A stretch of 64,000 nt of DNA from Idiomarina sp. (GTDB taxonomy: Bacteria; Pseudomonadota; Gammaproteobacteria; Enterobacterales; Alteromonadaceae): positions 1-64,000 of the forward strand of contig JAFIFH010000055.1 of NCBI GenBank assembly GCA_020832105.1, read 5' to 3'. Positions 11,062 to 64,000 of this stretch are shown here, in pieces (within the stretch, counting starts at the first letter, position 1; every line of letters starts with the position of its first letter). Both the position numbers and the translations under genes were made by a program. The notes below the pieces were generated by a model, which saw only the letters and a list, made by a program, of their open reading frames with translations, was not told the origin of the DNA and did not search any database.

Positions 11062-11062
11062 A

Positions 11063-11269: not shown

Positions 11270-11358
11270 GAGATATCCTTCTGTTTTTAAAGGTAGATGA
11301 GCTCTAAGTGTAGTTCAGCCGCGCCGAGGAACAACTACTCTGGGCGCGACTTTGACAA

Positions 11359-14700: not shown

Positions 14701-15744
14701 ATGCCGACCATGTCTGCTGCCTACGCTAAACGTATACTCCCGCTCGTCATTATCGCCGCAGTCATTGCTGCTTTAATTGCTCTATTTCTGTACGCTGCCG
14801 GTTTTTTCGGCCGCAGCCATGTCACCGCCCAACAGTTTGTTGATTTCCAGGAAGGTGGCAGCCCCCACGCCGGTTTTCGACGCGCCCATGCAAAAGGTGT
14901 GTGCGTAGAAGGTGACTTTGTCGCCAGTGGCGCACTCAGCGAGTACACCCGCTCCGCTATTTTCGCTGAAGGCAGCACGCCTTTCATTGGCCGTTTCTCC
15001 ATCGGTACCGGCAACCCGTCTGCGCCAGATCTTTCATCTGGTGTGCGCAGCCTGGCGTTAACCTTTGATGCAGGTGCCAACGAGCAGTGGCGTACCGCCA
15101 TGAATACCCCGCCAGTGATGGCAGTCGCGACCCCCGATGCATTTTTCGCCCAATTGAACGCGCTCATGCCCGACCCTGAAACCGGCGAGCGCGATCCGCA
15201 GCGCATTGCGGAGTTCTTTGCTGCACACCCTGAGACACAGACCTTTCGTGAATGGAGTGCGGGCTACACCCCCACGGGCAGCTACGCGAGTGAGCAATAC
15301 AACAGCATCAATGCGTTTTATCTGATTAACCGCAATGGCGATCGACAGGCTGTACGCTGGGCGGCGGTGCCTCGGGTTCAAATAGACGAAAACCCCTACG
15401 CCGATACTGACCAGGCCGACAATGCATTAGGTCTGGACATCGCGGAACGCATTGAAGAAGGCCCTGTTGTATATGATCTGGTATTTACCCTGGCCACAGA
15501 CGAAGACGACCCGAACAATCCGACAGTGGCCTGGCCAGACAGTCGCGAGCAAGTGACCGCCGGTCAGATCGTGATTCAGCGTTTAGCCAGTGATGATGCG
15601 CAGTGTAATAGCCTCAACTTCGACCCACTGGTGTTGCCCCGTGGCATGCAAGCCAGCGAAGATCCGATTTTAAGAGCACGCTCTGCGGCCTATGCGGAGT
15701 CATATCGACGCCGCGCCCGCGAAACCTGGCTGGGAGGGGAATAA
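14701..15744 (+). CDS. Catalase-related peroxidase, membrane-anchored (SrpA-like)
   Basis: This 347-residue haem peroxidase of the small catalase-like family has an N-terminal transmembrane helix or uncleaved signal (about 10-36). The catalase core is shown by FRRAHAKGVCVEGDF (distal His), SEYTRSAIFAEGSTPFIGRFS, and a central YNSINAFYLINRNGDRQAVRW. The C-terminal LVFTLATDEDDPNNPTVAWP and AQCNSLNFDPLVLPRGM are typical. It should lie on the periplasmic face. The next gene, cytochrome b561, begins 3 bases after its stop, so the two probably form an electron-transfer pair. ATGs at 14701 and 14710 are both possible. TATAAT-like sequence just upstream could make the message nearly leaderless. Confidence 0.87.
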   Translation: MPTMSAAYAKRILPLVIIAAVIAALIALFLYAAGFFGRSHVTAQQFVDFQEGGSPHAGFRRAHAKGVCVEGDFVASGALSEYTRSAIFAEGSTPFIGRFSIGTGNPSAPDLSSGVRSLALTFDAGANEQWRTAMNTPPVMAVATPDAFFAQLNALMPDPETGERDPQRIAEFFAAHPETQTFREWSAGYTPTGSYASEQYNSINAFYLINRNGDRQAVRWAAVPRVQIDENPYADTDQADNALGLDIAERIEEGPVVYDLVFTLATDEDDPNNPTVAWPDSREQVTAGQIVIQRLASDDAQCNSLNFDPLVLPRGMQASEDPILRARSAAYAESYRRRARETWLGGE

Positions 15745-15747: not shown

Positions 15748-16281
15748 ATGAGTCACTCACAGGTTAAAACCTTCCCGCTCAGCATGCGTATTTTCCACTG
15801 GGGTATGGCCGCACTGCTGTTGTCACTCATCTTAGCCGGTTTGTCGATGGTGCAGTCGTTGCAGCCCTGGCAAGTGACCATCTTAGCCTTGCATAAGGCC
15901 TTTGGTGTGGTTGCACTGATTGCGGTGATACTGCGCTTAATCAACCGCTTGCGCCAGCCCGTACCTGCATTACCAGCTGACCTGCCAGCCTGGCAGAAGC
16001 TCGCTGCCCGCGGCTCTCACGTGTTGTTGTATGCGGCAATGATTGCGATGCCCGTCAGCGGATACCTAATGCAAAGCGCCGCCGGCCGTGCGGTGGACGT
16101 ATTCGGTTTGTTCACGCTACCGCCACTGATGTCGGCCAACCTTGCCTGGTATGGTGTATTTCGCGAATTGCACGGCTGGCTGGCCTATGCTTTGGTAGTG
16201 CTCATTCTCGTGCATATTGCCGCAGCATTGCAGCATGGTTTGGTGCGTAAAGACGGCGTGCTTAAATCGATGTGGAAATAG
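15748..16281 (+). CDS. Cytochrome b561 family protein
   Basis: This 177-residue inner-membrane dihaem cytochrome b has four transmembrane helices at about 10-32, 45-65, 88-108 and 140-162. Haem-ligand histidines are seen in RIFHWGMA, LHKAFG, SHVLLYA and LVHIAAALQH. It probably takes electrons from quinol and passes them to the periplasmic peroxidase encoded immediately upstream. GGAGG precedes the ATG. Confidence 0.9.
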   Translation: MSHSQVKTFPLSMRIFHWGMAALLLSLILAGLSMVQSLQPWQVTILALHKAFGVVALIAVILRLINRLRQPVPALPADLPAWQKLAARGSHVLLYAAMIAMPVSGYLMQSAAGRAVDVFGLFTLPPLMSANLAWYGVFRELHGWLAYALVVLILVHIAAALQHGLVRKDGVLKSMWK

Positions 16282-47479: not shown

Positions 47480-47573
47480 GGGTGAATCAGCGACGATTCA
47501 GAGGTGTTCGATGGCCGACCATGCTCATCTCCTCACGCTCAAAGGCGCCTATTGAGCGAGTGCTGATTCACCC
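47480..47573. repeat. 12-bp inverted repeat flanking the gene ends
   Basis: GGGTGAATCAGC (47480-47491) and GCTGATTCACCC (47562-47573) are perfect inverted copies 70 bp apart. One lies just after the YdjM-like stop and the other in the 3' end of the broken esterase. It may form a large terminator-like stem or be chance. Confidence 0.35.
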
Positions 47574-48700
47574 TTTAGGTTAGCGTTCTGCAGTAGGATT
47601 TCACTTACGTATTTAGAGTCATGCTTCGTTGCATACCCCACCGCTTTTTCAGAAGCTGCTAACGCCGCCGATAGCTCATCATTCATACGATAAACCGTTG
47701 CCAGGCTGTCCCACAGAATCTCAGAATGGGGAAACGCTTGCGTGCCTGCCTCAAGGATTTCAATGCCCCAGGGCAGTTGGTCTTCATACGCAGCTTTTAA
47801 CCCATACACATTGTATTGATGAACTCCCATAGGTAGCTGATAACCAGATGCTCCACCGTATGCCTGATAATAGCTCTCCAGCGCTTGCAGTGACTTTACA
47901 TCAATTTCCGGCACCGCATTGAAACCCTTGAAAACAGATCTTAACCCCGCAACATTGCCAATCAACGGAGTCGAATCATGTGTTTCGTCATCGAACTGCT
48001 GAAGCTCCCAAGTCAGGTGGCTTACCGAGCCGCTGTTGAGCTTTTCTTGCAGTCGCGCAAAACCATCAGCCATTTCGCCAGGCTCGTTTGCCATACTGGC
48101 AAACCAACGAACACTCGGCGTCTCATCCGCAGGCTTTTCCAGTTCAGATAGAATGGCAAAGTCGTCCCACCACAGACTCGGGCTTATTGAGATAGCCGCC
48201 TGAATATTATCCGCATGATGAAGAGCCAGGTATGTTGTATACAACCCAGAGAGTGAATGACCCGTCACGGTCGTGTGGGGAGCAATGCGCTAGTCTTCGC
48301 GAAGCTGCGGCAATAGTTCTCTTAACAAAAACTCAGTGTAGCGTGGAGCACCGCCAGACCGACCTGCGAATTGCTCTATCTCAGTATGAGTAAAATTAAA
48401 TAGTCGACTGTTCGCACTTACCCCCACCACAATCATGTCAGGGATTTCGGCAAAGGTACTCATGAACTCGACATTGCCCGCAATGTGATTAAATTGCGTT
48501 GAACCATCCAGAATGAGAAGTAACGGGTACTCAAAGTCGACCGAATGAGGATAGCTTTCGGGTAAAGCAACCCGAATCGTGGTGTCCTCGCCTAGCAACT
48601 CAGAGTGGAATTGGAATGACGTGCTGGCATTGGAAACTGGAAGTAAACTGCTGATTGAAAACATCAAAGTACTGGTGAGTATTGCGAGAAATCTTCCCAT
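47549..48700 (-). pseudogene. Secreted alpha/beta-hydrolase esterase interrupted by an in-frame TAG
   Basis: This esterase is of the Fes/IroE-like (COG2819) type. The N-terminal part (48700-48290) has a signal peptide, then FQFHSELLGEDTTIRVALPESY, YPLLLILDGSTQF and FLLRELLPQLRED, and ends at TAG (48292-48290). Reading on in the same frame, without any shift, gives RIAPHTTVTGHSLSGLYTTYLAL: the nucleophile elbow GHSLSG and the rest of the hydrolase, ending at 47549. The stop stands where the family has Tyr (TAC or TAT to TAG, one base). The whole gene would be 383 residues. A GTG at 48268 could restart translation but would lack the signal and N-terminal strands. Confidence 0.8.
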
Positions 48701-48819: not shown

Positions 48820-50136
48820 TCACCTGGCCTTTGGAATATCCGCCCATCGCGTCGTATACGCCGGTGACAGCCGCTCGCGCTTCATGTGCCAGTCGGTTTT
48901 AGTCTTTTGCGAGGCAAAGAATAGCGTGCCGGTTTGCTGCTGATTCAAGGCGTCCAGCACCGCCATAAGTTCTTGGCTTTTCGGTTTGGGCTCGTGCACG
49001 GCAAAAAGCGATGGCTGGAATACGCCGGGTTGATAAAAGTCAGTCAGCATCACCCCGGCTTTAGTGTACCGGTAGCCCGGGCGAAAGAGGCGCTGGCATA
49101 GAGCCTGAGTTACACCCAATAGCTCTCGCGTGTCCTGGGTCGGTAGCGACAGCGTGCTGGTGGTCGTGTTGCTGTATTGCGCGTGTGTTTGATTAAACGG
49201 GTTGGTACGCATAAACACCGTCACCTGCTTCGCGCATTGGCCTTCATAGCGCAGCTTCTCTGCCGCGCGCACAATGAACGAGGCCACCGCAGACTCAATA
49301 CTATCGAGGGTCTCTACCGGGCTGCCAAAGCTACGCGACACCACAATTTGCTGTTTGGTTGGGGCAATGTCGTCCATCGCCAGGCAAGACTCACCACGAA
49401 GTTCCCGTGCAGTGCGCTCAAGCACCACCGAAAAGGTTTTACGAACGGTTTTGAGGTCAGCGTCCGCCAGCTGCAGTGCAGTTCCAATGCCCATGGCATT
49501 GAGTCGTTTAGATAGCTTTCTGCCAACGCCCCACACTTCATCGACCGGGGTAATCGCCATCAGTTTGCGTTGCCGTGTCTCACTGGTTAAATCCACCACC
49601 CCGCCAGTTTTGGCGTACTTTTTCGCGCCATAGTTGGCAAGTTTTGCCAGGGTTTTGGTCGGCGCCATGCCCACACAGGTACGAATACCCACCCAGCGCT
49701 CGATTTTATCGCGTAATTCACTGGCAAATGCCTCCAATGAGACCACAGATGACAGCCCACTTAAATCAGCAAAGGCCTCATCAATGGAGTACACCTCCAG
49801 TTTGGGCACCATGCCTTCAATGGTCGTCATCACCCGGTTAGATATGTCGGCATAAAGCGCATAGTTGGATGAGAATACCTGCACGTCGTGCTGACGAATA
49901 AGGTCCTCAATTTTGAAAATAGGTGTACCCATTTTAATACCAAGGGCTTTGGCTTCAGCCGAGCGCGCTACCGCGCAGCCATCATTATTGGAGGCGACAA
50001 TTACCGGCTTATACTTTAAATCGGGGCGAAACAGGCGCTCGCACGACGCGTAGAAGTTGTTGCAGTCAATCAGGGCGAAACATTGCGCTGGCTTTTTGGT
50101 TGAGCCACCGCTGGGGTTCGAAGCTTCAGCGCAGGC
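48820..50136 (-). CDS. umuC: DNA polymerase V catalytic subunit UmuC
   Basis: This Y-family translesion polymerase has about 438 residues from ATG 50136, which overlaps the umuD stop by 11 bases; the frame is open to 50181. Catalytic acids are in FALIDCNNFYASCE and YSIDEAFADLSG. Fingers/palm motifs are PVIVASNNDGCAVARSAEAKALGIKMG and GVGRKLSKRLNAMGIGTA, and a C-terminal little-finger and UmuC-specific tail follows (KPKSQELMAVLDALNQQQTGTLFFASQ). With UmuD' it forms Pol V for SOS mutagenesis. Coupled translation and a LexA box confirm the operon. Confidence 0.93.
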   Translation of the reverse strand, partial: ACAEASNPSGGSTKKPAQCFALIDCNNFYASCERLFRPDLKYKPVIVASNNDGCAVARSAEAKALGIKMGTPIFKIEDLIRQHDVQVFSSNYALYADISNRVMTTIEGMVPKLEVYSIDEAFADLSGLSSVVSLEAFASELRDKIERWVGIRTCVGMAPTKTLAKLANYGAKKYAKTGGVVDLTSETRQRKLMAITPVDEVWGVGRKLSKRLNAMGIGTALQLADADLKTVRKTFSVVLERTARELRGESCLAMDDIAPTKQQIVVSRSFGSPVETLDSIESAVASFIVRAAEKLRYEGQCAKQVTVFMRTNPFNQTHAQYSNTTTSTLSLPTQDTRELLGVTQALCQRLFRPGYRYTKAGVMLTDFYQPGVFQPSLFAVHEPKPKSQELMAVLDALNQQQTGTLFFASQKTKTDWHMKRERLSPAYTTRWADIPKAR

Positions 50137-50551
50137 CATGGATGACATAACTGACGACCCCAAACACATCGAGCTCGGCACTATCTGGAATACGTATAGG
50201 CGGGTAGTTAGGGTTATGCGACAACAACGCGGGGTAAGGCTTTAACTGCAGCTCTTTGACCGTCAGCTCGCCGTCCCAGCCGGCAATAATAATATCCCCC
50301 GCATTGGGCGATAGTGAGCGGTCAACGACCAGAATGTCGTTGTCATGAATGCCGGCGCCTATCATCGAATCACCGGTTGCCCGCACAAAATAAGTCGCCG
50401 CCGGGTGCTTGATACACAGCTCGTTTAAATCAAGTTGCTGCTCGACATAGTCCTGCGCCGGCGACGGAAAACCAGCCTGCACCGCTTCCAGCAGATAAGG
50501 GATTTGCAGCTTAGGATAGACCCCTGCCCGACAGATGATTTCAACCGACAT
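50126..50551 (-). CDS. umuD: UmuD, LexA-like self-cleaving Pol V subunit
   Basis: This 141-residue S24 peptidase homologue has its cleavage site at Ala26-Gly27 (QAGFPSPAQDY) with Ser62 (GDSM) and Lys99 (LTVKEL) as the catalytic dyad; numbering is offset by two from E. coli UmuD. RecA-stimulated self-cleavage would give UmuD'. Typical features VVDRSLSPNAGDII and NPNYPPI are present. It is the first gene of umuDC. Confidence 0.95.
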   Translation of the reverse strand: MSVEIICRAGVYPKLQIPYLLEAVQAGFPSPAQDYVEQQLDLNELCIKHPAATYFVRATGDSMIGAGIHDNDILVVDRSLSPNAGDIIIAGWDGELTVKELQLKPYPALLSHNPNYPPIRIPDSAELDVFGVVSYVIHGLR

Positions 50552-51785: not shown

Positions 51786-52130
51786 ATGTTACTTACATTA
51801 CAGCAACTTAAGAAGCTTTGATACGGAGCTAAATTAATGAATATGTCATTGAAAAGATTGGTGGCCCCTCCCAGATTTGAACTGGGGACCAACCGATTAT
51901 GAGTCTAATCCAACCATGTTTTACCAAGCTCCAACCTGCTTTAGAGTCGTTATAAAATATTGATTTAAAAAGCTATTTTAAAATAAACGAATTCATCGTG
52001 TTTCATCTCCCCCCATCAAGGGCCGACCGTTAGGTAACCCCTTAGGGTACCCCCAAACCGCAATTGAACATCAGCTGGCCGAAAATTAGAGCGTACATAT
52101 TTACCCTCTCTAACTTTTGGCGATCCTGGG
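51786..52130. other. Attachment region between antitoxin and integrase
   Basis: This 345-bp spacer contains the tRNA fragment (listed separately), an AT-rich stretch, and a GC-rich inverted element GGTAACCCCTTAGGGTACC-like at about 52036-52055. The latter may be an integrase arm site or terminator. No gene is seen. Confidence 0.45.
51859..51905 (-). other. 47-nt 3' tRNA fragment (CAT anticodon), attachment-site scar
   Basis: Read on the minus strand from 51905 this begins in the anticodon arm as GACTCATAATCGG, then GGTCCCCAGTTCAAATCTGG (T arm), and ends AGGGGCCACCA. It matches the 3' 47 bases of a tRNA-Ile2 (CAT, lysidine type) or tRNA-Met, including CCA. The 5' half is absent: bases upstream of the anticodon loop do not complete the stem or a GGCCCCT acceptor strand. 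This is the usual scar of integration into a tRNA 3' end. The orientation places the element to the right, with the intact tRNA beyond the window. Confidence 0.82.
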
Positions 52131-53429
52131 TTGAACAGCGAAAATGGTCGGATTGTAAAGCTAAATAGCTACATACCGGGATTGAATGTGAAAGTATTTA
52201 CGGTGAAACAGATTCAGGCTCTGAAGCCTAAAAAAGAAAAGTTCTACGTTTGGGAAGCCACTGGGCGCCGTAACATAGGATCGCTTGGCGTGTGTGTTTA
52301 TCCCAGTGGCACCAAAACATACCTCTACCGTTATTCCAAGGGCAAGGTACGTCGGCGTATCAAGCTCGGCCAAACGCATTTGGTCTCGTTAGTTGATGCA
52401 CGCACTAAAGTTCAGGAGTACTCATATAAGGTGTCAATTGGTGAAGATCCGTTGCCTCAATGCAACAAGATTGAAGCTTCCCAGGCCAGCGGCACAATTG
52501 AGGACATGTTCAGCTACTACATCGAAAAAATGAAGGCCGATGGCAAACGCTCGTATAATGAGGTGATTTCGGCAGTAGAGCGAGATGTATATGTGGAAAT
52601 TGACAAGTCCATAGCCGCTAACGAAGTAACGTCTCGCCAAATCGCCGAGATTCTGGCCAAAATGATACAACGCGGTGCCGCAACTGGCTCAAATCGCCTG
52701 CGCTCGTATCTACATGCAGCCTTTAATACCGCGATTAAACATGACAACGACCCTGCGAATCTGCATAACCAAATGCGGTTTGGGCTCACCCAAAACCCGG
52801 TTACCCCAGTACCTCGGCAAAACGTAGAGAAGGTTGGCGAGCGAGCGCTAAGTGAAAATGAGCTAGCAACCCTGTTAAAAGATATTCAAGCGACTGGCTT
52901 CAGCCCGCTTACCAAGTTCGCAATCCTGCTGTGCCTATACGGCGGTGGCCAGCGCCCATACGAGGTGATCAACACCAGATACTCTTGGATTGATATACAA
53001 GCTAAAACCTGGACGATACCAGGAACGATCACGAAGAATAAATTAGAATTAGTGATACCAATGAGCAAGCAACTTACGGCTCTGATCGAGGAATCTCGCC
53101 TCTTTGCCTGGAATAGCCCGTTCCTTATCTGCAAGCGGTTAGACCCAGGCCAACCAATGCATACCAGCAGTATTGCTCAAGTATTGCAGCGGTACTGCAA
53201 ACGAAAAGGGATCGAGCCCTTTGTACCCCGCGATCTGCGACGCACTTGCAAAACCTTAATGACCAAACACGGCATAGGTACTATGGAAACTCGCAACCGG
53301 TTGCATAATCATGCCCTTAATGATGTCTCAAACAAGCACTACAACAAGTACGATTATTTTAATGAGAAGCTTGAGATTGTTTGTGAGTGGGGGAACTACT
53401 TGGATAGTTTAGTCGAAAAGCGAGTGTAG
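52131..53429 (+). CDS. Tyrosine integrase of a tRNA-targeted island
   Basis: This site-specific recombinase has about 432 residues from a TTG at 52131; GTG 52188 is an alternative. The N-terminal arm-binding domain (KEKFYVWEATGRRNIGSLGVCVYPSGTKTYLYRYSKGKVRRRIKLG) is of the DUF4102 type of P4-like integrases. A core-binding domain follows, then a catalytic domain with Arg in YGGGQRPYEVIN, PRDLRRTCKTLM (HxxR position, with Arg in place of the usual first His), HNHALNDVSNKHYNKYD with the second His and nucleophile Tyr. It lies 226 bp from the tRNA scar, pointing into the element. Confidence 0.88.
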   Translation: MNSENGRIVKLNSYIPGLNVKVFTVKQIQALKPKKEKFYVWEATGRRNIGSLGVCVYPSGTKTYLYRYSKGKVRRRIKLGQTHLVSLVDARTKVQEYSYKVSIGEDPLPQCNKIEASQASGTIEDMFSYYIEKMKADGKRSYNEVISAVERDVYVEIDKSIAANEVTSRQIAEILAKMIQRGAATGSNRLRSYLHAAFNTAIKHDNDPANLHNQMRFGLTQNPVTPVPRQNVEKVGERALSENELATLLKDIQATGFSPLTKFAILLCLYGGGQRPYEVINTRYSWIDIQAKTWTIPGTITKNKLELVIPMSKQLTALIEESRLFAWNSPFLICKRLDPGQPMHTSSIAQVLQRYCKRKGIEPFVPRDLRRTCKTLMTKHGIGTMETRNRLHNHALNDVSNKHYNKYDYFNEKLEIVCEWGNYLDSLVEKRV

Positions 53430-53618
53430 CCTTCGCTGTTACCAATTTCTCGCACACAAAGTACGCTAACTTTCCTCAGATAAAGTAATGAGCGATTGGC
53501 CAACTCAAAAGTCTGGTTGAGCGGTGACCTTTCACAGATACCTATTGTAATCCTGTATGCTTTGGGATTAATATTTTGTATATTTATTAGTCACTTATCG
53601 AAAGGGAGCTAGTGCTCA

Positions 53619-54170
53619 ATGAATGCAAACGAATCATCCAAGAAGAGTGAGAATAGGCCTTTTTCGTTTCTTGTTAGTGAGCTAAATCGAGGTTTGATTA
53701 TAATTCTTAGCTTGATTGGAGTCTTCCAAGTTTTAGAAACTCTGTCGCCAGGCTTCTCAGCTCTCTTTACCTTCATTAGCTCAGAAACCTTCACGCAACT
53801 GTCTGTACTCGTAGCTATTCTGCTTTGGTTATCTGCGTATGGAGTCCTGCTAGCTTTCATGCCAGTTTGGGACCAATACAAAAAGCCTTTAAGTAAATTT
53901 CTTCATTTTATCTTTGCTATTCTAACGCTTGTTGTCGGGGTGCAGGTCGCTGGTATCACTCAAGCACTCCAAAAGGTTCAAAAGCAAACAGATGAAACTA
54001 TTCTAACGATTCAATTTCGAGCACTTGAAAGAGAAAGACAAAAAGTTAGGAATGAGATGCAAATGCTCGAAAGTGCAATAGTTGATTTATGTCGACATCT
54101 AGATGAGCCCTGCCGGAGCCTCCCTCAAACAGAGAGCAATGATAATTATACAGGCCCCACCAACGACTAG
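53619..54170 (+). CDS. Membrane protein with cytoplasmic coiled coil, unknown function
   Basis: This 183-residue protein starts at ATG 53619 behind GGGAG. Transmembrane helices are predicted at about 25-50, 60-82 and 95-115. A charged helix follows (QALQKVQKQTDETILTIQFRALERERQKVRNEMQMLESAIVDL), then a C-terminal tail with CRHLDEPC. Compact membrane plus coiled-coil proteins of this size occur as effectors in defence islands, but no domain is recognised here. It is AT-rich like the rest of the island. Confidence 0.7.
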   Translation: MNANESSKKSENRPFSFLVSELNRGLIIILSLIGVFQVLETLSPGFSALFTFISSETFTQLSVLVAILLWLSAYGVLLAFMPVWDQYKKPLSKFLHFIFAILTLVVGVQVAGITQALQKVQKQTDETILTIQFRALERERQKVRNEMQMLESAIVDLCRHLDEPCRSLPQTESNDNYTGPTND

Positions 54171-54480
54171 AATCAAAGATAATAAATGAATCGCCATTAG
54201 TTGACTAAACACTTTGTAGATCCCTTTTTCAAATCGTTTTTCATACTCTACTAGCGATAGCTGGCCGTTAAAGCCATGGCGCCGTTATACGGTGTAAAAC
54301 ACCTCTATGTAATCGAGGTATCGCGCCTGAAATGACCCCAGTGAGTACGCTTTGAATTTCAATCGCTCTCGCTTCGGTCAGCTCACCAAATTAACCATGC
54401 CACTACACCAAATATTAGGCCGGTGAAGGAGCAATTAAAACTGCTCTCTACCCCGGCCTAAAGCGTCTCCTCTGACTAGA
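54171..54480. other. Intergenic region with possible insertion-sequence remnant
   Basis: This 310-bp spacer contains short hairpins (for example ACACCTCTATGTAATCGAGGTAT near 54300) and repeat copy B at 54380-54409. The layout of short imperfect repeats suggests an eroded mobile-element end. No reading frame is convincing. Confidence 0.4.
54380..54409. repeat. Diverged 30-bp repeat, copy B
   Basis: This is the partner of 50890-50919, with core CCAAATTAA-CC-ATGCCACTA in the same orientation, 3.5 kb away. The two copies lie on opposite sides of the tRNA scar. Confidence 0.4.
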
Positions 54481-54975
54481 TTACTTTTCTTCAGTGAGAC
54501 GCTGGATAGCACGAATAGCGGCGTTAATTTTCCTAATCGATTCATGAATAGCAGCTTGTTCTCTGATCAAAGGCTCGAACATTCCATGAGTTTGGCGGAT
54601 TATTGGCTCTTTCCATTCTCGGGCAGCCTTTAAGATCTTATCTAGATCCGTAATACCATTTTTATTCCGGGAAATGTCTTTAGCAAATACGCGTGCTTCC
54701 TTTTTCACCAGGTTAATACGGGCATAATTATTTGGATAAATTCGCCAGCGCATATAAACAGCCCCAAACTCCCCGGAATAAACTCGCAGCGACGGCGCAA
54801 CGAGACCTGGCTTTTCCCTTCTGTCACCTTGGGTATTCGCCTTGATTACCTGTCGATTCTTCATCTTCCACATTGCCCAGTACCTGCTAGTTGCATACTC
54901 AAGTCGATCAATCGCTTTCCTTTTGAACCCGAGTAGCTGTTCCCGCGCCTCTTCCAGCCTTACTATATCGGCCAT
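54481..54975 (-). CDS. Unknown protein, possibly MobI-like
   Basis: This 164-residue protein starts at ATG 54975 behind GGAGAGG. It is basic and helical at both ends, with a central beta-rich part (PSLRVYSGEFGAVYMRWRIYPNNYARINLVKKE). The pattern YATSRYWAMWKMKN, then a Pro/Arg strand and xxxYMRWRIY, is reminiscent of MobI, an auxiliary mobilisation protein of SXT/R391-type elements. This assignment is tentative. If right, the island may be mobilisable. It could instead be an unrelated phage or plasmid protein. Confidence 0.6.
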   Translation of the reverse strand: MADIVRLEEAREQLLGFKRKAIDRLEYATSRYWAMWKMKNRQVIKANTQGDRREKPGLVAPSLRVYSGEFGAVYMRWRIYPNNYARINLVKKEARVFAKDISRNKNGITDLDKILKAAREWKEPIIRQTHGMFEPLIREQAAIHESIRKINAAIRAIQRLTEEK

Positions 54976-55410
54976 AACCTCTCCTGTTTGAATACGCCCT
55001 CACTCTGAGAGCTGAGCAAACATTTTCTTGGAAAAATGAGTTAAAGGCCATTCGCTAGAGAGGGTCAAAACATGCCCTCTAAATTTCGTTTTTTTTGTTT
55101 GATAGATACTTAATTAGAATTTAGGCAGTAACTGTGCTTTCACAAGTGCCGAATATGCGGTCCATTGTGTCTGCGAAATCTACTCCAAAAGCGTATCGTC
55201 GCCGGTAACAGATTCACACTATTTAACCCCCGTTAGTTCTGGGTGAGCACTAGGCAACGTTTAAATTACCCAAGCTTCCATAGCAACTCTCTCTACTTAA
55301 ACTGCTTGCGGGGCGTGATGGCTCACCGCTCATTTTTGGTTGATTATTAACCTTCTTTTTTTAACCTGTGCTGCTATTGTAAGGGTGTCGATTTTGAGTA
55401 GGTATTGAGC
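54976..55410. other. Intergenic region before mcrB
   Basis: This 435-bp AT-rich spacer carries the divergent promoters. A weak hairpin AGAGGG-N10-CCCTCT (about 55055-55080) and a GGTT-GATTATT-AACC hairpin followed by TTCTTTTTTT (about 55339-55362) lie in it. No gene or RNA is recognised. Confidence 0.45.
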
Positions 55411-57621
55411 ATGGAAGACCAAAACAAAAACTATTGGCTGGTGGGCTCATCCCGCGGACATAGCGAGGACATGACGGATCACTTGATTAAGAGAGGTATC
55501 TGGGAGTTCTGGCCGTCGAAGAACAAACCAGATCGTTACGCAGACACAATTAAGTCGATGCGGCCCGGAGATAGAATTGCGATAAAGGCCGCATATGTTC
55601 GCAAAAAAAATCTACCGTTTGATAACCACAACCAGCCGGTTGCTGCAATGGGTATTAAGGCGGTGGGTACCATTACTGCCAACCAAGGAGACGGTCGCGT
55701 TGTCGAAGTGGATTGGGAGCCGCGCATTGAGCCGCCAAAGGAGTGGTTTTTCTATACCTACCAGCAATCAATCTGGAAGCCAGATATAAATCACCCAAAA
55801 CGCGGTGAGTTGGCCAGGCAGCTTATCGACTTTGTCTTTCACGATGCGCCCCAGGATATTGATTTCTTCTTAGAGCACAACTTCTGGAGTGATCGTTACC
55901 AGGCAAAATCTACCAACGAACTCGTGAGCACTACGTCTCAGTTTTCATGGGTGACATTTTACGAAGAGTTCGCTTCCAAACTGCTCCGTTATAGGCATGA
56001 TCGCCAAACTTTACTGAATGGGATTGATAAGCTTATCCAGAAAAAGGAAACGCCCTATTTAGAGATCCTTTCTACGGCAAATGAAGATGGCTCGAGAACT
56101 GTCCTTGATGATGTCTGTCCATTTACGGTGATGGCAACATTCAATCGCTCATTAACACCAGAGAATAGAAAGGCGATATGTGCCGCCCTGGGGGAGCTAA
56201 TTGGTGTTGAGTCTCCAGTACCCGATGGGTTCGATGGTATTCCAATCATGAATAACCAGAAATCCTGGTTTTTCACTTCAAAAGAGAAACGCGACCCAAA
56301 TGATATCGATCGCTTGTGGGATATCTTTGAATCAGTCCTCGATTATGCGAAAGCCTGTGATGATGGCCGTGAAGAGGAACTTAAATCTGATTTTGCAGAG
56401 AAGTTTGATCGCGTAATTCTACAAAAGGGATTGCGTTGGACGCCGAGTTTTGGCTTTTATTGGGCGCGACCCAATCACTTTGCGCCTCTTGATCAAAATA
56501 CGCGACGCCTCATTCAAGAATACTTAGACATTGAGTTTCCGTTGGATACGAAGTACGCAGATTTCAAGGGTTACGATTACTTAAACCTGCTCGACACTTT
56601 GAAGGCATGGTTTAGCGAAAGTGACGCCTTTGCCAAAAGCTTCATTGAACTCTCCTACAAGGCGTGGCATCGGATTGACGAAACCAAAGAACCGACGTCC
56701 CCAGAAACCGACAGTGAGCAAGATCCGGAATCTGAAGCCGAAGCTTATGATGTTGAACGCCTGGTTGGTGAAGGTTGCTTTATCGAGCCCGCCACACTAA
56801 CCAGAATGGTTGAACGTTTAAAGTTAAAGAAAAACCTCATTCTGCAAGGTCCACCAGGTACCGGTAAAACATGGTTGTCGAAGCGACTAGCATTTTGCTT
56901 GATGGGTGCACAACGAACTAAAGACATTATAGCGTTGCAGTTTCACCCTACTTTATCGTACGAAGACTTTATTCGAGGTTGGCGCCCCAGTGCAGACGGA
57001 CGGCTACAACTTGTAGATGGGCCTCTCATGCGGGCAGTCGAAACCGCAAAGCGCAATCCGAATAAGCAAATTGTCGTCGTCATTGAAGAAATAAACCGCG
57101 GCAACCCGGCGCAAATTTTTGGGGAGATGCTGACCTTAATCGAATCGAACAAGCGTGACCAACTCTATGGCTTGGAGCTAAGCCATATGCGAGAAAAGGA
57201 AGCGTCGGTGTTTGTTCCTGCCAATCTTTATATTATTGGTACGATGAACAATGCCGACCGTTCATTAACCATGATGGATTATGCGCTCCGTCGACGGTTT
57301 AGTTTCTTTGATTTAGCACCTGAACTTAGCGAGCGCTGGGTGAATTGGCTTGTACAAAAGGCGAAAGTAAAGGAACAGGATGCTCGCACCATTGGGGATC
57401 GTATGCGAGCGCTCAATCAGATAATTGCCGAGGATGACTCTCTAGGTAGGGATTTTCTGATTGGACACAGCTACGTGACACCAAAAGAACACGCGTTACC
57501 TGACGTAGATGATTGGTTTACTGAAATTGTTGAAACGGAGTTGAAACCACTTTTAGAAGAGTACTGGTTTGATCGCCCGGCACAGGTTGCGAATGCACTT
57601 AAAATACTGCGAGGTCAATAG
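55411..57621 (+). CDS. mcrB: EVE-McrB fusion: modified-base-dependent restriction NTPase
   Basis: This protein has about 736 residues from ATG 55411. The N-terminal EVE/PUA-like domain (NYWLVGSSRGHSEDMTDHLIKRGIWEFWPS, GDRIAIKAAY, VVEVDWEP) recognises modified bases in related proteins. A helical middle follows, then the McrB AAA+ domain from about 460: Walker A QGPPGTGKTWLS (about 480-491), Walker B region VVVIEEINRGNPAQIFGEML, and the McrB GTP-specific motif MNNADRS (about 612-618), then LRRRFSFFDL. The stop overlaps the mcrC start by one base. With McrC it forms a type IV restriction complex that cuts DNA containing modified cytosine. Confidence 0.9.
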   Translation: MEDQNKNYWLVGSSRGHSEDMTDHLIKRGIWEFWPSKNKPDRYADTIKSMRPGDRIAIKAAYVRKKNLPFDNHNQPVAAMGIKAVGTITANQGDGRVVEVDWEPRIEPPKEWFFYTYQQSIWKPDINHPKRGELARQLIDFVFHDAPQDIDFFLEHNFWSDRYQAKSTNELVSTTSQFSWVTFYEEFASKLLRYRHDRQTLLNGIDKLIQKKETPYLEILSTANEDGSRTVLDDVCPFTVMATFNRSLTPENRKAICAALGELIGVESPVPDGFDGIPIMNNQKSWFFTSKEKRDPNDIDRLWDIFESVLDYAKACDDGREEELKSDFAEKFDRVILQKGLRWTPSFGFYWARPNHFAPLDQNTRRLIQEYLDIEFPLDTKYADFKGYDYLNLLDTLKAWFSESDAFAKSFIELSYKAWHRIDETKEPTSPETDSEQDPESEAEAYDVERLVGEGCFIEPATLTRMVERLKLKKNLILQGPPGTGKTWLSKRLAFCLMGAQRTKDIIALQFHPTLSYEDFIRGWRPSADGRLQLVDGPLMRAVETAKRNPNKQIVVVIEEINRGNPAQIFGEMLTLIESNKRDQLYGLELSHMREKEASVFVPANLYIIGTMNNADRSLTMMDYALRRRFSFFDLAPELSERWVNWLVQKAKVKEQDARTIGDRMRALNQIIAEDDSLGRDFLIGHSYVTPKEHALPDVDDWFTEIVETELKPLLEEYWFDRPAQVANALKILRGQ

Positions 57622-58742
57622 TGCTCAGCGAATCTGAATCAGAGGTACACGACTACCAAACGGGAATCACCAAATATGGCATCCCAATTCGCAATATATG
57701 GTTGCTACTGCTGTATGCCTCTGATTTATATCGTGCTGGTTATGTTCAGTCTGCAGGCACTGAAAATACTGTGGACGATACCTCAGAGCTCGTCGCCGAG
57801 CTTTTGTGTTATCAGGTAGAGCAGCGACTTCGCAATGCGCTTACTCATGCCTACGTCTCTCGCACAGAAACGCGAACTCGCGTTCGTGGTCAGATAGAGC
57901 TACTGCGCACAGAGCAACAGCAACTGCTGCGCCAGGGCAAGGTAATGTGCACTTTTGAAGCGCTCACACTGAACACAGCTCGCAACTGCTTTATTCGCGG
58001 TGCACTCGAGCACCTGGGTCACTTAGTTACTAATAAGAACTTAGGTAAGCGTTGTGTTCAATTGGCCAAACAGCTGCTACTTCGGGGAATTACTGACCCT
58101 GCCCCCTCCCTCAAAATCATGTGCCGGGAACGCTTTGGCCGACACGATAAAGCCGATCAATCCATGTTTTTTGCGGCTAAGCTGGCTCACCAGCTACGTA
58201 TTCCAACCGAGCAAGAAGGAAACCAAAATCTAAATAATTATCACCGTGACGAGCATGCATTGCGGCAACTTTTTGAAAAGGCAGTTGCAGGGTTTTACGC
58301 TGTTCGTTTCGCAGGGACATCATGGCGTATTCATCAGGGCAAGCAACTATCATGGCAAATCGACGCATATTCCGAAGGGGCGCCCGCAATATTTCCGGGG
58401 ATGAAAACCGATATTGTGCTTGAAAATCTTCAGCAGCAGCGGCGCATTATCATCGACACAAAATTTAGTACCATATTGAAATCGGGTCAGTTTCGCTCCG
58501 ATACACTCCACTCTGGTTACTTGTATCAGTTGTACACTTACTTACGTAGCCAAGAGCACCGCGATGACCCTCTCTCACTTACCAGCGAAGGGGTGTTGTT
58601 GCACCCCAGCACCGGTGTCGATATCGATGAGTTTGTGGTGGTTCAGGGACATCGAATGCGGTTTGTGACGGTGGATTTGGGTTGTGATGCCACTGTTTTC
58701 CAGCGGCAATTGATGGAAGCTATCGCTCTCTATGATGTTTAG
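57621..58742 (+). CDS. mcrC: McrC, nuclease subunit of McrBC
   Basis: This 373-residue protein starts at GTG 57621, sharing one base with the mcrB stop. The N-terminal ITKYGIPIRNIWLLLLYASDLYR matches the McrC beta-barrel start, and the middle has RTETRTRVRGQIEL. The C-terminal PD-(D/E)XK nuclease has Asp264 in MKTDIVLE and Asp279/Lys281 in IIIDTKF, followed by YLYQLYTYLRSQ. It stimulates McrB GTPase and cleaves DNA. Length is a little above E. coli McrC. Confidence 0.92.
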   Translation: MLSESESEVHDYQTGITKYGIPIRNIWLLLLYASDLYRAGYVQSAGTENTVDDTSELVAELLCYQVEQRLRNALTHAYVSRTETRTRVRGQIELLRTEQQQLLRQGKVMCTFEALTLNTARNCFIRGALEHLGHLVTNKNLGKRCVQLAKQLLLRGITDPAPSLKIMCRERFGRHDKADQSMFFAAKLAHQLRIPTEQEGNQNLNNYHRDEHALRQLFEKAVAGFYAVRFAGTSWRIHQGKQLSWQIDAYSEGAPAIFPGMKTDIVLENLQQQRRIIIDTKFSTILKSGQFRSDTLHSGYLYQLYTYLRSQEHRDDPLSLTSEGVLLHPSTGVDIDEFVVVQGHRMRFVTVDLGCDATVFQRQLMEAIALYDV

Positions 58743-58968
58743 CTAGCTTGTCAGCGACCTATGCGGCTTAACGAGAGAGTATAATAATTCACCAGAGCTA
58801 TTCAAAGCATCAAAACTCCAGCTTTTAACTGGGCACGTATAGAGCCCAGACACTCTTAACATACCCGTGCAGCCCATGTAGGTACTGGTATGTAGTGTTG
58901 AACGAAGTTAGCAACAGTACTGGTGTGCTTTTAATACGTGCATAAGGTGGCCTGTTTGCTTCTCATTA

Positions 58969-61900
58969 CTAAATATTGAGCTCAATAATCTCGAAAACTT
59001 GCTCTAGGTACTTACCCTCTTCAGGCGCTGTCGCTCCGCGAACATAGGATGGGATAACCTGCAAAAATTCATCACGATTTATCGGCGTATACTCAATGAG
59101 TGATTCGAGCATGGCTGGTCTAAGCAACCTTTTATTTTCGGGCGTGTTGGGTAGCTCTGCGCGAATTACCTGCTGGTCAAAGTGATTTAACTTCTCAGCT
59201 AATGTACTTGCAGAGTCGTTGGCATCTTTAACTCTCTGCTCTTCCTTCTCCACGCCCGCTACTATGCTGTCTATGTTCTCAGGTTCTGGCATCTCCGGCT
59301 TGTTGACGTCATTTATATCTGTTTTGAGTGCGTTGAGCTCGCTAATAATAGGTTTAAGCTGCCCTTTAGGGTTTTTGAACCAGTCAGTTGACCATATTCG
59401 ACGTATGCGCCAACCCAAACGCTCAAGAATCTCCTGCCGCAAACGGTCCCGATCTCGTGCTGACTTGGCCGAGTGATAGGTAGCACCATCACACTCTATA
59501 CCCATTAAATACCTGCCAGGACGACCGGGGTCCACTACAGCGATATCAATATAGAATCCTGATTCACCAACTTGAGGTTCACACTCAAAACCAGCGTCAT
59601 TTAACGCTTTTATTACCGCGACCTCGAAATCACTATCTGGCTCTTTCCCTGTCTGTCCAGCGGTATTACCAAGTAGCCCAGTCTCGCAATAGCGCAGGAA
59701 ATTTCTTAAGGCTCTCACGCCGCGTTTACTAGTTTCACTAACGACTATGTCGTCAGAGCTCATCGAGCTAAAGATATGCATCCGCTTTTTCGATCGAGTA
59801 AAAAGCACATTCAGTCGTCTCCAACCAACATCACTGTTGATAGGGCCAAAGCGCTGAAAAACTCTACCGCCGATTTCTTGTGGACCGTACGTCATAGATA
59901 TAAAAATGACGTCACGCTCATCGCCTTGAACATTTTCTAGGTTCTTAACGAATAGAGGATCTTCACCAGAGGCATTTCGATGAAGTATCTGTTGAAACTC
60001 AAAGTCCTGCTTGCTTAGCGTTTCAATGGCTCGCTCTATATGCTGCTGTTGCTCACTATTCATCGCAACCACCCCCAGACTCTCATTTGGACGGGCTTTG
60101 ATGTGATCCTTTACAGCTTCCGCTATAACCCTTACCTCTTCCATGTTCTTTCTGTTAATGAAGCAACCATTTTGCAGACGCTTATACTTCAAACCGAACT
60201 CACCACTTGCCTTATTTGGAGATGGGAAAAGGATTAAATTATCGTCGTAAAAAGAATGGTTTGAGAACGAAATTAAGCTCTCGTGCTGAGAGCGATAATG
60301 CCAACGTAACCGCCGTGCTTGGAACATTGGCAATGTAGCATCAAGAATACTCTCTGACTCCTCAACACCAGTGGTCTCATCTTCTTCTTGCTCGTCATCT
60401 ACGGCTCTCTCAAAAAAGCTCGTTGGAGGTAATTGTTTAGGGTCCCCTACTATAACCACTTGCTTACCCCGAGCTATCGCGCCCAGCGCATCCTGCGGTT
60501 TAATCTGAGATGCTTCGTCCATGATCACCAGATCAAAATCCATTTGGCCAGGCTCTAAGTAGTGAGCAACTGACATTGGCCCCATCATAAAGCACGGTTT
60601 TAATGCGACAAGTGCTTGTCCTGCTCTCTTAACTAACTGCCTGACCGGTATATGTCGCGTCTTTTTATCACATTCCCACTTTATTAGCGCCAGCCCACTT
60701 TTTTCTTTAACACGAGCAGCGTCATTCCCTTTGGGTACAGGAGTTTGATCAATTTTGTGAGCTATAGCTTCACTTTGAAGCAATTTTAATTTTTCATCAT
60801 ACTTCGCAAAACTTTTTTGGACTTCCTCTTGGCTCTTGCCCGAAAAATAAGCAAGCTCCTTATGGCCAGCAAGTATTTCTCTGGCTAGCTTGTCATAGAT
60901 ACCGAGAGAAAAGCCCTGCAATAGCTGATCTGGCTGCAATGCACCAACTTCCAATAGCCGAACTAGGTTAATTAGGCCCTCTGCGCTCATTAACTCTCGT
61001 TGTTGCAGGTAGTCAAGCCAATCACTCAAGCTATCGGGCCGCTCTAAAGCAAGCTGGTTGCGCTTTATTAATTGATCTAAGGAATCTGCTACATTCGCAT
61101 TCCACTCTTTTTCATCCAAATGCACGATATCTGAAAATGAAGCTTTTGCTTCCTGGCCGTTCGACAGCTTCATACCAAGTGCCTCTGCATGTGTCCGCAC
61201 AAGCTCGAAAGCGTCACTATTTTTCTCTTCCACTAGAAATTTACTGACTCTCTCGTCATCCACCTCGATAGATATCGATTTTGCTAATGCAATTGTTCTT
61301 TCAAAAGCTGCGATTTGCTGGGGCTCATTGTTTTGGACATCTGCCGTTAACGTAATTTGATTCTGAAAGATTTCTTCAATAACGTTTGCTGAGCGCCACA
61401 TTGCTACGTGTTTAGAGTATTCACCAAGCTTCTTCACTCGCTCGCTAAGGGCTTCAAACGTCGGATCATCCTCAGAAGCGAGCTCGTCTAACTTATCAAC
61501 TGCTGTTTTTAGCTCATTAACAAAGCGAGCCAGGGCATCTTTTGCTTCTAATAAGTCGCGCTTTGTGTCCTGCAGAAGAACAGCTGGCGTAAATCGATGC
61601 CTTGCTCGTTCGAGAACTTCATTAACCTCAGTTACCGCAGCTTTAAGCCCACTTGAGCTTTGTGCTTTGACAGCTGTATAGGTGTTTTTTGACATATTGA
61701 CGAGTGCATTCCCTAAAGCTGCGCGCCTACCCAAACCTGTACCGAACTCTTCCCTAATTTGTTTGTACCACGAGCGAACTGACACAAGACCTTCAATGTC
61801 GGTATCTAGCTCCTTGTAGAGTTTTTCTAAGCACTGCTCGTATTCAATATTGTTTCTCAACTTTGTGAGCTCCTTCGCAAACTGAATCGCTTGAGGGAGC

Positions 61901-64000
61901 CGTAGTTTTAAGTCTTTCAATTTTGTAGTGTTGTTCAATGCCAATAATCTGAGCTCAGAGCGGGCAATCCACCAGCTAGACGCAGTCCAACAAAACAAAC
62001 TAGTTTTATCAATTTCAACTTGTATCGCCTCTAACTTCGTTGGCGAACCTAATTTTTCGATATCAAAATATGGCTTTAGTTGCTCCCGCAAGGGGTTAAG
62101 CAAGGAAAGGCTCTGCTTTAGCTCAGGTAACAGAGCATCCAAGTCAGGGTTCTCAAAATACTCGGAACGCAGATCCAGGTAACGCTGTGGAATTGAGTCG
62201 ATCAAATCTAAAACGAGACCGAAGTCTTTCAAACCGTCTGTATGGAAGTTTGGCGTCCTTTTGCCATTCAAACCTAGCTCTTCGCCAATCTGTTCATAAT
62301 GCTCGTGAATAGGCTCAAGCTCTTGAATGACCGTATCTAACTCGTCAAGTAATTGTCCGGCTTCTCCAAGCGTGACTTCTGGTTGAAAGTTTTCGACAAC
62401 TACCTCATTTGCGGCTCTATACTCGTCAAAATTTAGATTGGGCTGCACTATGCCAGACAGCGAAAACTCACTGAGGGATGTCGAGAGGGAGCTGATTGCC
62501 TGATAAGACTCGAGCGCCTGGATAGCGCTCAAAAGCCCTTTCCCTTGAAGCCGTGGCAATGCATCCAGCAATTCACTTCCGTTTAAAGGCGGTATCAGGT
62601 TGAGGTCTTCACACAACTTCTGAAGCTCACTCAAGCTGGGTGTCGCGGAGTCGTCATTTACCCCAAGAGCACGAATAAACTCTCTGTAGCTTGCTGCAAC
62701 AGACATCAAATGTTGTTGCCACGACTCAAGAGAACTCAACACACTTTCTGCATCAAAATACTGAAGATTTGAATTTCTTACTCCAAACCACGGGTGATAG
62801 TCGATTTTGCGAGCATTTCCTTCAGACGACAGAATACCGAGATATACGCCTTTAAAGCGTTCAATGTGCTCTGCTAATCGTCTCTGGGTCACAGAATCAA
62901 AAGACGGGCCATCTAGTTTCTCCGGGTGCACTTGCTCCGGATTAATACCTAGTTCATTTCTGTAACGCGCTGCAGAACATAGAATTTCATGTAATGTTAG
63001 ACCAGTGCTTTCCCATTCTGCATTTATCTGTTGAGCGTAACTGGTCAGTTGTGACTTGAGTTCCTCGTAGCGACTTATTTCAGTGCTAATTGAGGATGGT
63101 GGTCTATACTGACCTGCTTTATCAAGCCTCAACTTTAAGTCATCTAAAACACGACGTTTTTGTGTCTTATGACTGTGCAGCTCTAGGCAAAAATCACCTA
63201 GCCCAGCAGCATCTAGGCGAGTTTTAACGACATCTAAAGCAGCCATTTTTTCAGCTACGAATAAAACTTTCTTTCCTTGTGATAGTGCCGCAGCTATCAC
63301 ATTGGTAATTGTTTGCGATTTACCTGTACCTGGAGGCCCCTCAATGACTAAGCTCTTGCCTTCAAGTATGTCTATTAGCGCGCTATGCTGAGAACTATCC
63401 GCGTCACTGATAAGTGGATACTTATCATGAATGTCGTCAATATCGTCAAGCGAATGCTCCTCTCCAAAACCTAACCCCGGTTCTGACTCTGGATTTTCGT
63501 TCTGCCCGTTTAAAAATCCATCAACAACCTCATGAGACAATAGACGGTTATCAGGCCAACGTTTCGGGTCTAAATCGAGATACATCAACAGCCGACTAAA
63601 ATTGAACAATCCCAGCGATACGAATCTTCTAATGCTCCACTCTTGTTTGCTTTCAAGAATCGTTTGCTCAATGGAATTAAAATACGATTCAGGGGTAGTC
63701 TCTTCGTCAACCTCTGGTAATGATAACGCGAAGTCAGTACGCAGCTTCTCTCGCAGGGAAAGGTTTGCGATGATGCTTTCTCCGGTCGTACTGACTGTAT
63801 ATTCATAAGTACTTGTTTTAGCGTTAAGACGGCCTTTGTTAAGTTTAACCGGTAACAGGTACAACGGAGCTTGTCGCACACTTTTAGTATCATCAGTTTC
63901 GTACCACTCAAGAAACCCGAATGCTATAAACAGAATATTCGCACCAGTCTCTTGAACTGATGACTCTGCGGTTCTGAAAAGGTTTTTCAAACGAGTCTCG
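58969..64000 (-). CDS. DUF4011-type SF1 helicase with Vsr-like nuclease, N-terminus outside the window
   Basis: The frame is open through base 64000, so at least 1676 residues are seen and more lie beyond. The visible N-terminal part (RLKNLFRTAESSVQETGANILFIAFGFLEWYE) is DUF4011-like. Walker A is IEGPPGTGKSQT (about 217-228), followed by VLFVAEKMAALDVV. A long coiled-coil/helical insert covers about 330-1100. Then FDLVIMDEASQIKPQDA (about 1155), VIVGDPKQLPPTSFF, LENVQGDERDVIFISMTYGP and RLNVLFTRSKKRM complete an Upf1/Dna2-type helicase. The C-terminal nuclease resembles the REase_MTES_1575/Vsr group (GFECEPQVGESGFYIDIAVVD, IECDGATYHSAKSARDRDRLRQ, LGWRIRRIWSTDW). It converges with mcrC and is likely a second, independent defence system. 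Confidence 0.87.
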   Translation of the reverse strand, partial: ETRLKNLFRTAESSVQETGANILFIAFGFLEWYETDDTKSVRQAPLYLLPVKLNKGRLNAKTSTYEYTVSTTGESIIANLSLREKLRTDFALSLPEVDEETTPESYFNSIEQTILESKQEWSIRRFVSLGLFNFSRLLMYLDLDPKRWPDNRLLSHEVVDGFLNGQNENPESEPGLGFGEEHSLDDIDDIHDKYPLISDADSSQHSALIDILEGKSLVIEGPPGTGKSQTITNVIAAALSQGKKVLFVAEKMAALDVVKTRLDAAGLGDFCLELHSHKTQKRRVLDDLKLRLDKAGQYRPPSSISTEISRYEELKSQLTSYAQQINAEWESTGLTLHEILCSAARYRNELGINPEQVHPEKLDGPSFDSVTQRRLAEHIERFKGVYLGILSSEGNARKIDYHPWFGVRNSNLQYFDAESVLSSLESWQQHLMSVAASYREFIRALGVNDDSATPSLSELQKLCEDLNLIPPLNGSELLDALPRLQGKGLLSAIQALESYQAISSLSTSLSEFSLSGIVQPNLNFDEYRAANEVVVENFQPEVTLGEAGQLLDELDTVIQELEPIHEHYEQIGEELGLNGKRTPNFHTDGLKDFGLVLDLIDSIPQRYLDLRSEYFENPDLDALLPELKQSLSLLNPLREQLKPYFDIEKLGSPTKLEAIQVEIDKTSLFCWTASSWWIARSELRLLALNNTTKLKDLKLRLPQAIQFAKELTKLRNNIEYEQCLEKLYKELDTDIEGLVSVRSWYKQIREEFGTGLGRRAALGNALVNMSKNTYTAVKAQSSSGLKAAVTEVNEVLERARHRFTPAVLLQDTKRDLLEAKDALARFVNELKTAVDKLDELASEDDPTFEALSERVKKLGEYSKHVAMWRSANVIEEIFQNQITLTADVQNNEPQQIAAFERTIALAKSISIEVDDERVSKFLVEEKNSDAFELVRTHAEALGMKLSNGQEAKASFSDIVHLDEKEWNANVADSLDQLIKRNQLALERPDSLSDWLDYLQQRELMSAEGLINLVRLLEVGALQPDQLLQGFSLGIYDKLAREILAGHKELAYFSGKSQEEVQKSFAKYDEKLKLLQSEAIAHKIDQTPVPKGNDAARVKEKSGLALIKWECDKKTRHIPVRQLVKRAGQALVALKPCFMMGPMSVAHYLEPGQMDFDLVIMDEASQIKPQDALGAIARGKQVVIVGDPKQLPPTSFFERAVDDEQEEDETTGVEESESILDATLPMFQARRLRWHYRSQHESLISFSNHSFYDDNLILFPSPNKASGEFGLKYKRLQNGCFINRKNMEEVRVIAEAVKDHIKARPNESLGVVAMNSEQQQHIERAIETLSKQDFEFQQILHRNASGEDPLFVKNLENVQGDERDVIFISMTYGPQEIGGRVFQRFGPINSDVGWRRLNVLFTRSKKRMHIFSSMSSDDIVVSETSKRGVRALRNFLRYCETGLLGNTAGQTGKEPDSDFEVAVIKALNDAGFECEPQVGESGFYIDIAVVDPGRPGRYLMGIECDGATYHSAKSARDRDRLRQEILERLGWRIRRIWSTDWFKNPKGQLKPIISELNALKTDINDVNKPEMPEPENIDSIVAGVEKEEQRVKDANDSASTLAEKLNHFDQQVIRAELPNTPENKRLLRPAMLESLIEYTPINRDEFLQVIPSYVRGATAPEEGKYLEQVFEIIELNI

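Follow-up and report, generated by a model that had tools for sequence, protein, structure and literature searches.

A predicted anti-phage defense island in a tRNA-Ile2 gene of Idiomarina sp. that carries a MobI-like gene and a candidate origin of transfer

Here, we present an analysis of a 64,000-nucleotide stretch of DNA from Idiomarina sp. (assembly GCA_020832105.1; hereafter the window), which comprises bases 1-64000 of contig JAFIFH010000055.1 (hereafter C22; 65,044 bases, which continues for 1,044 bp past the window) in a draft genome of 3.03 Mb that consists of 77 contigs and is 92.83% complete. Based on its letters alone, an earlier reading of the window (the sequence-only reading) had proposed that its right part is the left end of an island with defense genes that is integrated at a transfer RNA (tRNA) gene. 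We found both attachment sites of this island, the tRNA gene that is its target, the island-free locus in a relative, and the gene families that it encodes. We conclude that the island is very likely a single integrated element of ~31.1 kb in the 3' half of a tRNA-Ile2 gene, with its right end on a second contig, C74. More tentatively, and with somewhat less than an even chance of being right, we suggest that the island is a hybrid of an integration module that targets tRNA-Ile2, in which the integrase gene is at the distal end with a fixed polarity and has satellite-like relatives, and of a module with MobI and an origin of transfer (oriT) that is related to marine MOBH plasmids; such a hybrid would hitch-hike on MOBH conjugative elements.

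The sequence-only reading had pointed to a 47-nt, CCA-ending fragment of a CAT-anticodon tRNA on the minus strand, and this fragment lies exactly at 51859-51905 with the CCA end leftmost, at 51859. In a control, 0 of 100 shuffles gave a match to it at ≤3 mismatches. An intact tRNA was not found in the window. At the same threshold, the 47-mer recurs once in the draft genome, at C74:17895-17941 on the minus strand, and has no third copy. Using ARAGORN, we found that this second copy belongs, as the 3' part, to an intact CAT tRNA gene (C74:17895-17970, minus strand), i.e., the complete minus-strand tRNA with matching last 47 bases that had been predicted. The 76-nt C74 tRNA matches E. coli genes annotated as tRNA-Ile at 87-88% (five listed of 6,008 records), arguing that it is of the Ile2 type; the label 'Met' that ARAGORN assigns to it follows from the CAT anticodon alone. 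The perfect repeat comprises 61 nt because identity extends 14 bases beyond the CCA, and on the anticodon side it ends with the fragment itself (C74:17881-17941 for the copy at the intact tRNA). The element is, therefore, bordered by direct repeats, of which one is the end of an intact tRNA gene, and neither C22 nor C74 contains a further tRNA-Ile2 fragment of >10 nt.

We infer that C74 follows C22 from a split gene, a matched end motif, a low GC content, and the orientation of the two contigs. The last gene of C22 encodes the WYL half of a regulator and is truncated at its start; the first gene of C74 encodes an N-terminal half, is truncated at its end, and has the orientation that fits the last gene of C22. 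The best solved-structure match of this split regulator is 7QFZ from E. fergusonii, which is named as BrxR in the accessible part of PMC9122601; the C22 end matches residues 119-292 and the C74 start residues 7-100. The two contig-end genes look like halves of one BrxR-like WYL regulator, between which, by the yardstick of 7QFZ, ~16 residues (~48 bases) are missing, and, apart from the C22 end, nothing in the draft genome matches a WYL domain (E ≤ 0.001). The end motif (Table 1) is present in two places only in the draft genome at ≤2 mismatches, namely 124 bp inward from the fragment end and, in the same orientation, 47 bp inward from the tRNA end (C74:17824-17847). The GC content is 0.453 in the island piece on C22 and 0.451 in that on C74 compared with 0.517 in the left flank and 0.540 beyond the tRNA, and all 75 pieces of 13.1 kb obtained by sliding along the left part of the contig fall within 0.504-0.529. 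Together, 13.1 kb on C22 and 17.9 kb on C74 give the length of ~31.1 kb between 51859 and the C74 tRNA. These observations support the idea of the sequence-only reading that all genes from 52131 to beyond 64000 belong to one element, with the join of the contigs as the inferred part.

The P4-type integrase gene that had been described beside the fragment begins 225 bases past it, and a tyrosine integrase gene is thus adjacent to an attachment site. Its catalytic and arm-binding domains score above the Pfam cut-offs and the core-binding domain just below (26.1 versus 27 bits). In many islands, the integrase gene lies beside the intact tRNA gene; here, it adjoins the tRNA fragment instead. We examined 26 loci with relatives of the integrase, among them 16 (L041-L056) of 30 listed loci (46 matches) from one search that also gave the own copy as L040. 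Two of the 26, L041 and L072, probably stem from one and the same genome. In 12 of the 26 loci, an Ile2 copy (≥41 nt) is located ~150-310 bp upstream of the integrase gene, on the opposite strand in all 12; in five of the 12, that strand also encodes an intact CAT tRNA ~3-5 kb beyond the integrase gene. In L080, the Ile2 match has 13 nt only. The named hosts of the integrase relatives are Aeromonas, Colwellia, Motilimonas, Vibrio, and Pseudidiomarina. Two Aeromonas loci (L075 and L079, near 9750-9850 and 15776-16103) are compact islands between two whole CAT tRNA genes. A Vibrio locus (L077; 9776 and 14851-14927) shows a related integrase with this layout at tRNA-Arg(CCT) instead, arguing that target choice has shifted among the relatives. 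Eight proteins of the relatives' elements were scanned, giving YagK/YfjJ-like proteins (L078 and L081), a VapE-like protein (L080), a DUF3987 protein (L077), a coupling-protein-like ATPase (L073), and AlpA above the cut-off (L080) or just under it (L076); we take the gene content of these compact elements to resemble that of phage satellites.

To compare the locus within the genus, we used 17 genomes including the own one. The tRNA has a match in all 17, and two matches at ≤3 mismatches are present only in the own genome. A second near-identical copy of the 47-mer was accordingly found in 0 of 16 congeners at this threshold, and the fragment was thus not seen to be fixed among the relatives. 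In one congener (G011), homologues of the gene pair at 51785-51010 of the window (95% over 107 of 107 residues and 85% over 88 of 146) begin 118 bp past the tRNA and are followed by homologues of the genes at 46.3 kb (84%) and 42.5 kb (95%), arguing that the DNA to the left of the fragment adjoins the tRNA in at least one relative. In a second one (G002), a degenerate tRNA-like copy separates the tRNA from the counterpart of the window's esterase gene at 47.5-48.7 kb (71% and 70%). The comparison with island-free relatives that the sequence-only reading had suggested thus gives an island-free arrangement in G011 and, less closely, in G002. In 14 of the 16 other genomes, no clear neighbor from the left flank was present in the stretch examined, and G015 and G008 have no and little sequence downstream of the tRNA, respectively. 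The initial bases of the tRNA-side end of the island recur in three congeners (G005, G007, and G009), arguing that the tRNA-Ile2 site is a hotspot. Downstream of intact tRNA-Ile2, tRNA-like copies are present in G004 (L035, 1521-1777), G002 (L025, 1654-1739), and G012 (L028, 2055-2146); there are one to three in tandem, 85-91 bases apart, in which the T-arm/acceptor 3' end and the CCA are intact and a proper anticodon arm is missing, and they may be either scars of past insertions or tRNA pseudogenes. Within the left flank, the pair at 51.0-51.8 kb is toxin-antitoxin-like (Gp49 match under the cut-off, 21.9 versus 23.9), has a GC content of 0.453 with its surroundings, and may itself be an older insertion; the esterase gene (47549-48700, minus strand) consists of two same-frame open reading frames (ORFs) split by a stop and is possibly a broken gene. 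The ABC-F protein encoded in the window is 80% identical to its counterpart in Pseudidiomarina woesei and 71-72% identical to those in a Colwellia, an Enterovibrio, and a Motilimonas, which, taken with the genome size, points to a host from the Idiomarina group.

Plasmid homologues back the MobI-like label that the sequence-only reading had given to one island gene, with a Pfam score just under the cut-off (Table 1). For the comparison with plasmids, we used six regions out of 113 matched plasmid records. The protein is 35% identical to MobI of a Pseudoalteromonas nigrifaciens plasmid and 33% identical to MobI of a P. arctica plasmid. In the latter plasmid, the gene for the MobI homologue lies two genes ahead of that for a MobH relaxase, and this MobI is 27-30% identical to annotated MobI(A/C) in the plasmids from Shewanella and Photobacterium that we inspected; there, mobH is the second gene after mobI in four of four regions (three from Shewanella and one from Photobacterium). 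The island and the two Pseudoalteromonas plasmids also share a block of 33-35 nt that is located 62-113 bases before the mobI start codon. Matches to P. arctica as good or better were obtained in 0 of 300 and 1 of 500 shuffles, and the match to P. nigrifaciens, which is less good, was equaled or exceeded in 7 of 300 and 12 of 500. In the island, this block (55056-55088) is a candidate oriT, and the MobI homologue together with the shared upstream motif suggests mobilization. MobI relatives were limited to the own copy in 246 sampled genomes of the family (E ≤ 1e-4) and in 369 sampled genomes of the class (E ≤ 1e-6), and none were found in phages (E ≤ 0.01) or in viral contigs. We also considered a self-transmissible integrative and conjugative element (ICE) and ruled it out because its own relaxase and type IV secretion system are not among the island ORFs scanned, which were those other than the C74 umuDC-like pair and most C74 ORFs of <90 aa; none of them matched a relaxase or type IV secretion family.

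We propose the following model for the island. The P4-type integrase would have joined the attP site of the element to the tRNA-Ile2 gene, and the element would have brought a replacement 3' end, leaving the tRNA whole on C74 and the 47-nt copy in the window. With the integrase gene beside the fragment and the gene for an AlpA-like protein, a possible directionality factor, beside the intact tRNA, excision would unite both at attP; the AlpA-like protein would act in excision. Mobilization would be the most likely route between cells, and we consider the chances that the island moves in this way to be about even. In this process, MobI would bind the oriT just upstream of its gene and recruit a MOBH relaxase supplied by a helper, either a plasmid or an ICE.

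Several observations weigh against parts of this model. No read or contig spans the C22-C74 join, and ~7% of the genome is absent from the draft. Synteny with G011 is partial in that the 20 kb examined gave no match to the umuDC, DEAD-box, or 45.8-kb genes of the window and the esterase gene sits elsewhere, on the far side. Among the integrase relatives, 12 of the 26 loci (L042, L043, and L047-L056) lack an Ile2 copy within the ~1.5 kb examined upstream of the integrase gene, and these include L042 and L043, which are among the closest relatives (43% identity). The AlpA match is weak. As for mobilization, the P. nigrifaciens plasmid stretch lists no mobH nearby, and the oriT block is present in two of the six plasmids compared and was not found in the four more distant ones (three from Shewanella and one from Photobacterium); moreover, the block in the island contains AGAGGG/CCCTCT, a short inverted repeat recognized by eye, and could be another kind of hairpin. 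The only match to a MOBH relaxase family in the genome is a stretch of 24 residues on C68 that is barely above the cut-off, arguing that no resident helper is evident.

Three alternatives have to be weighed against these data. If there were two or more islands, the element that starts at 51859 would end on an unseen contig and share its tRNA with a separate island on C74 by tandem accretion. Such an arrangement is conceivable at a hotspot where the downstream DNA differs among congeners and G005, G007, and G009 have similar right ends, in a draft genome of this completeness, and islands in tandem have been described for a different site, trmE (PMC7449626, partial text). However, the correctly oriented halves of the WYL gene with ~16 residues missing, the end motif confined to the two ends, and the lack of additional tRNA-Ile2 fragments on C22 and C74 and of a third 47-mer in the draft make this explanation highly improbable. 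Another possibility is that the island is a dead remnant, in which the integrase gene and the attachment sites persist in an element that no longer excises or moves, consistent with the lack of an evident helper and the poor match of the directionality factor. Because the ORFs for the integrase, MobI, and the defense proteins in the window are uninterrupted and the 61-nt repeats are identical, we consider such a remnant rather unlikely. The third possibility, that the island is a phage satellite similar to phage-inducible chromosomal islands (PICIs) and spread by a helper phage instead of a conjugation-mobilized element, is more doubtful still. It would agree with the satellite-like genes in the compact elements of the integrase relatives (YagK/YfjJ, VapE-like, and DUF3987); however, the scanned ORFs of the island gave no match to a primase, replication, or packaging family, and 31 kb is large for a PICI. 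PICIs and satellites in tRNA-Ile2 have been described (PMC10111431, in the part available) and share with this island the target gene, an integrase, and an AlpA-like regulator, although some Ile2 PICIs lack alpA. In contrast to PICIs, the island is larger, lacks primase and packaging genes among the scanned ORFs, and has a gene for MobI, a member of a family of conjugation proteins (PMC7449626, in part).

The cargo of the island is rich in genes related to defense. In agreement with the sequence-only reading, McrB, McrC, and a giant helicase-nuclease are encoded to the right of the integrase gene; the EVE label that it had attached to McrB was not confirmed, with no Pfam EVE match for the N-terminus at E ≤ 0.01. 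The gene for the McrB AAA GTPase is directly followed by that for McrC, as in McrBC type IV restriction systems; McrB scores 228.9 bits, which is below the E. coli-type equivalog cut-off of 637, and McrC scores 354.3 bits, which is above its cut-off of 338. The giant protein matches the Hhe profile PDLC02194 with 1736.5 bits, residues 120-1812 of 1815 aligning to profile positions 203-1895 of 1911, and this nearly full-length match identifies a predicted Hhe system. Its ORF (58969-64416 of C22, minus strand) begins outside the window, and the WYL regulator gene precedes it by 103 bp with the same orientation, making it likely that the two form a repressed operon of the BrxR type in which the regulator probably represses Hhe. 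PADLOC was run on 10 proteins; from C74, these did not include the products of the second T5orf172 gene, the umuDC-like pair, the 11.0-kb gene, or the AlpA-like gene. The C74 cargo comprises genes for an MbcA/ParS-like protein, SRAP, two T5orf172 proteins, of which the first matches PD-Lambda-1 (353.7 bits), FRG (PDC-S15), and AbiJ_NTD4 (PDC-S32). Apart from the genes for integration and excision, much of the island is predicted to be anti-phage cargo with putative defense activity, comprising McrBC, Hhe, and, on C74, the PD-Lambda-1-like, FRG, and AbiJ-like genes, besides the SRAP and umuDC-like genes. The proteins encoded at C74:2572-3987 and 11034-12245 are alike by eye, have no Pfam family, and are possibly nucleases; the former has a weak match to the candidate defense family PDC-S69. 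One umuDC-like pair is located in the island (C74:8459-10178) and another to its left (48820-50551 of the window), with 80% DNA likeness at the umuD end.

Table 1. Features of the island (window coordinates unless a contig is given)
Feature	Position	Strand	Basis or remark
Distal attachment site	51845-51905	-	47-nt 3' part of tRNA-Ile2(CAT) plus 14 nt past CCA; perfect 61-nt repeat with C74
24-nt end motif TTAGGTAACCC-NN-TAGGGTACCCC	52030-52053	+	Possible integrase arm site or directionality-factor site (putative role)
P4-type tyrosine integrase, 432 aa	52131-53429	+	Pfam; relatives with same target and polarity
Predicted membrane/coiled-coil protein, 183 aa	53619-54170	+	No family above cut-off; label by eye
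MobI-like mobilization protein, 164 aa	54481-54975	-	PF19456, 26.4 bits versus cut-off of 26.6; plasmid homologues
Candidate oriT core	55056-55088	-	Upstream of mobI; common to two Pseudoalteromonas plasmids with closest MobI found
McrB-type GTPase, type IV restriction, 738 aa	55405-57621	+	EVE-like N-terminus not confirmed
McrC nuclease subunit, 373 aa	57621-58742	+	Above NCBIfam cut-off
Hhe-type DUF4011/helicase/REase_MTES_1575 defense protein	58969-64000	-	Continues to C22:64416; 1815 aa in all
AlpA-like protein, possible directionality factor	C74:17338-17589		Beside intact tRNA; 17.6 bits versus cut-off of 21

Defense islands that are integrated at tRNA genes are well known as a general kind; the pairing of this integrase clade with MobI is uncommon, and the combination found here is unusual. 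The MobI islands MGIVchHai6 and MGIVmi1, as far as described in the available parts of PMC7449626 and PMC8409611, resemble this island in having an integrase, an Xis/AlpA-like gene, MobI, and phage-resistance cargo, as well as an oriT just upstream of mobI (here a candidate) and a need for the relaxase and type IV secretion system of a helper (which would apply here). In MGIVchHai6, the oriT comprises the 49 bp directly upstream of mobI, and transfer requires TraI of the helper (PMC7449626, same part). In contrast to this island, which is in tRNA-Ile2, has an integrase of another clade, and encodes a MobI closest to MobI of Pseudoalteromonas plasmids, those islands are located at trmE, yicC, or dusA. 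Among the titles and abstract openings listed for MobI islands (20 of 115 papers) and for tRNA-Ile2 or Idiomarina islands (8 of 2,194), none names a MobI island at a tRNA gene. Regarding the cargo, the BrxR-regulated defense island of pEFER, from what the partial text of PMC9122601 says, likewise has a BrxR-type WYL regulator with type IV restriction close by; however, the regulator here precedes Hhe and not BREX, and the island is chromosomal and not on a plasmid. The term 'Hhe' occurs 0 times in PMC9122601. Hhe is the 'Gao Hhe' of PMC13249269, and no difference from it was noticed in the part of that paper available. In McrBC and EVE-McrB systems (PMC7641849, in part), McrB and McrC are adjacent as they are here, and the N-terminus of McrB in this island is unassigned, so that it may or may not belong to the EVE-McrB type.

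Altogether, our analysis places both ends of a multi-system defense island that is split over different contigs and provides a concrete oriT candidate for a MobI element outside the islands at trmE, yicC, and dusA. Part of the integrase clade keeps one target and one polarity across several gammaproteobacterial genera. If the island is indeed a hybrid of an Ile2-targeting integration module and a MobI/oriT module related to marine MOBH plasmids, then a tRNA gene would join trmE, yicC, and dusA, the sites given in the accessible portions of PMC7449626 and PMC8409611, as a site for MobI islands.

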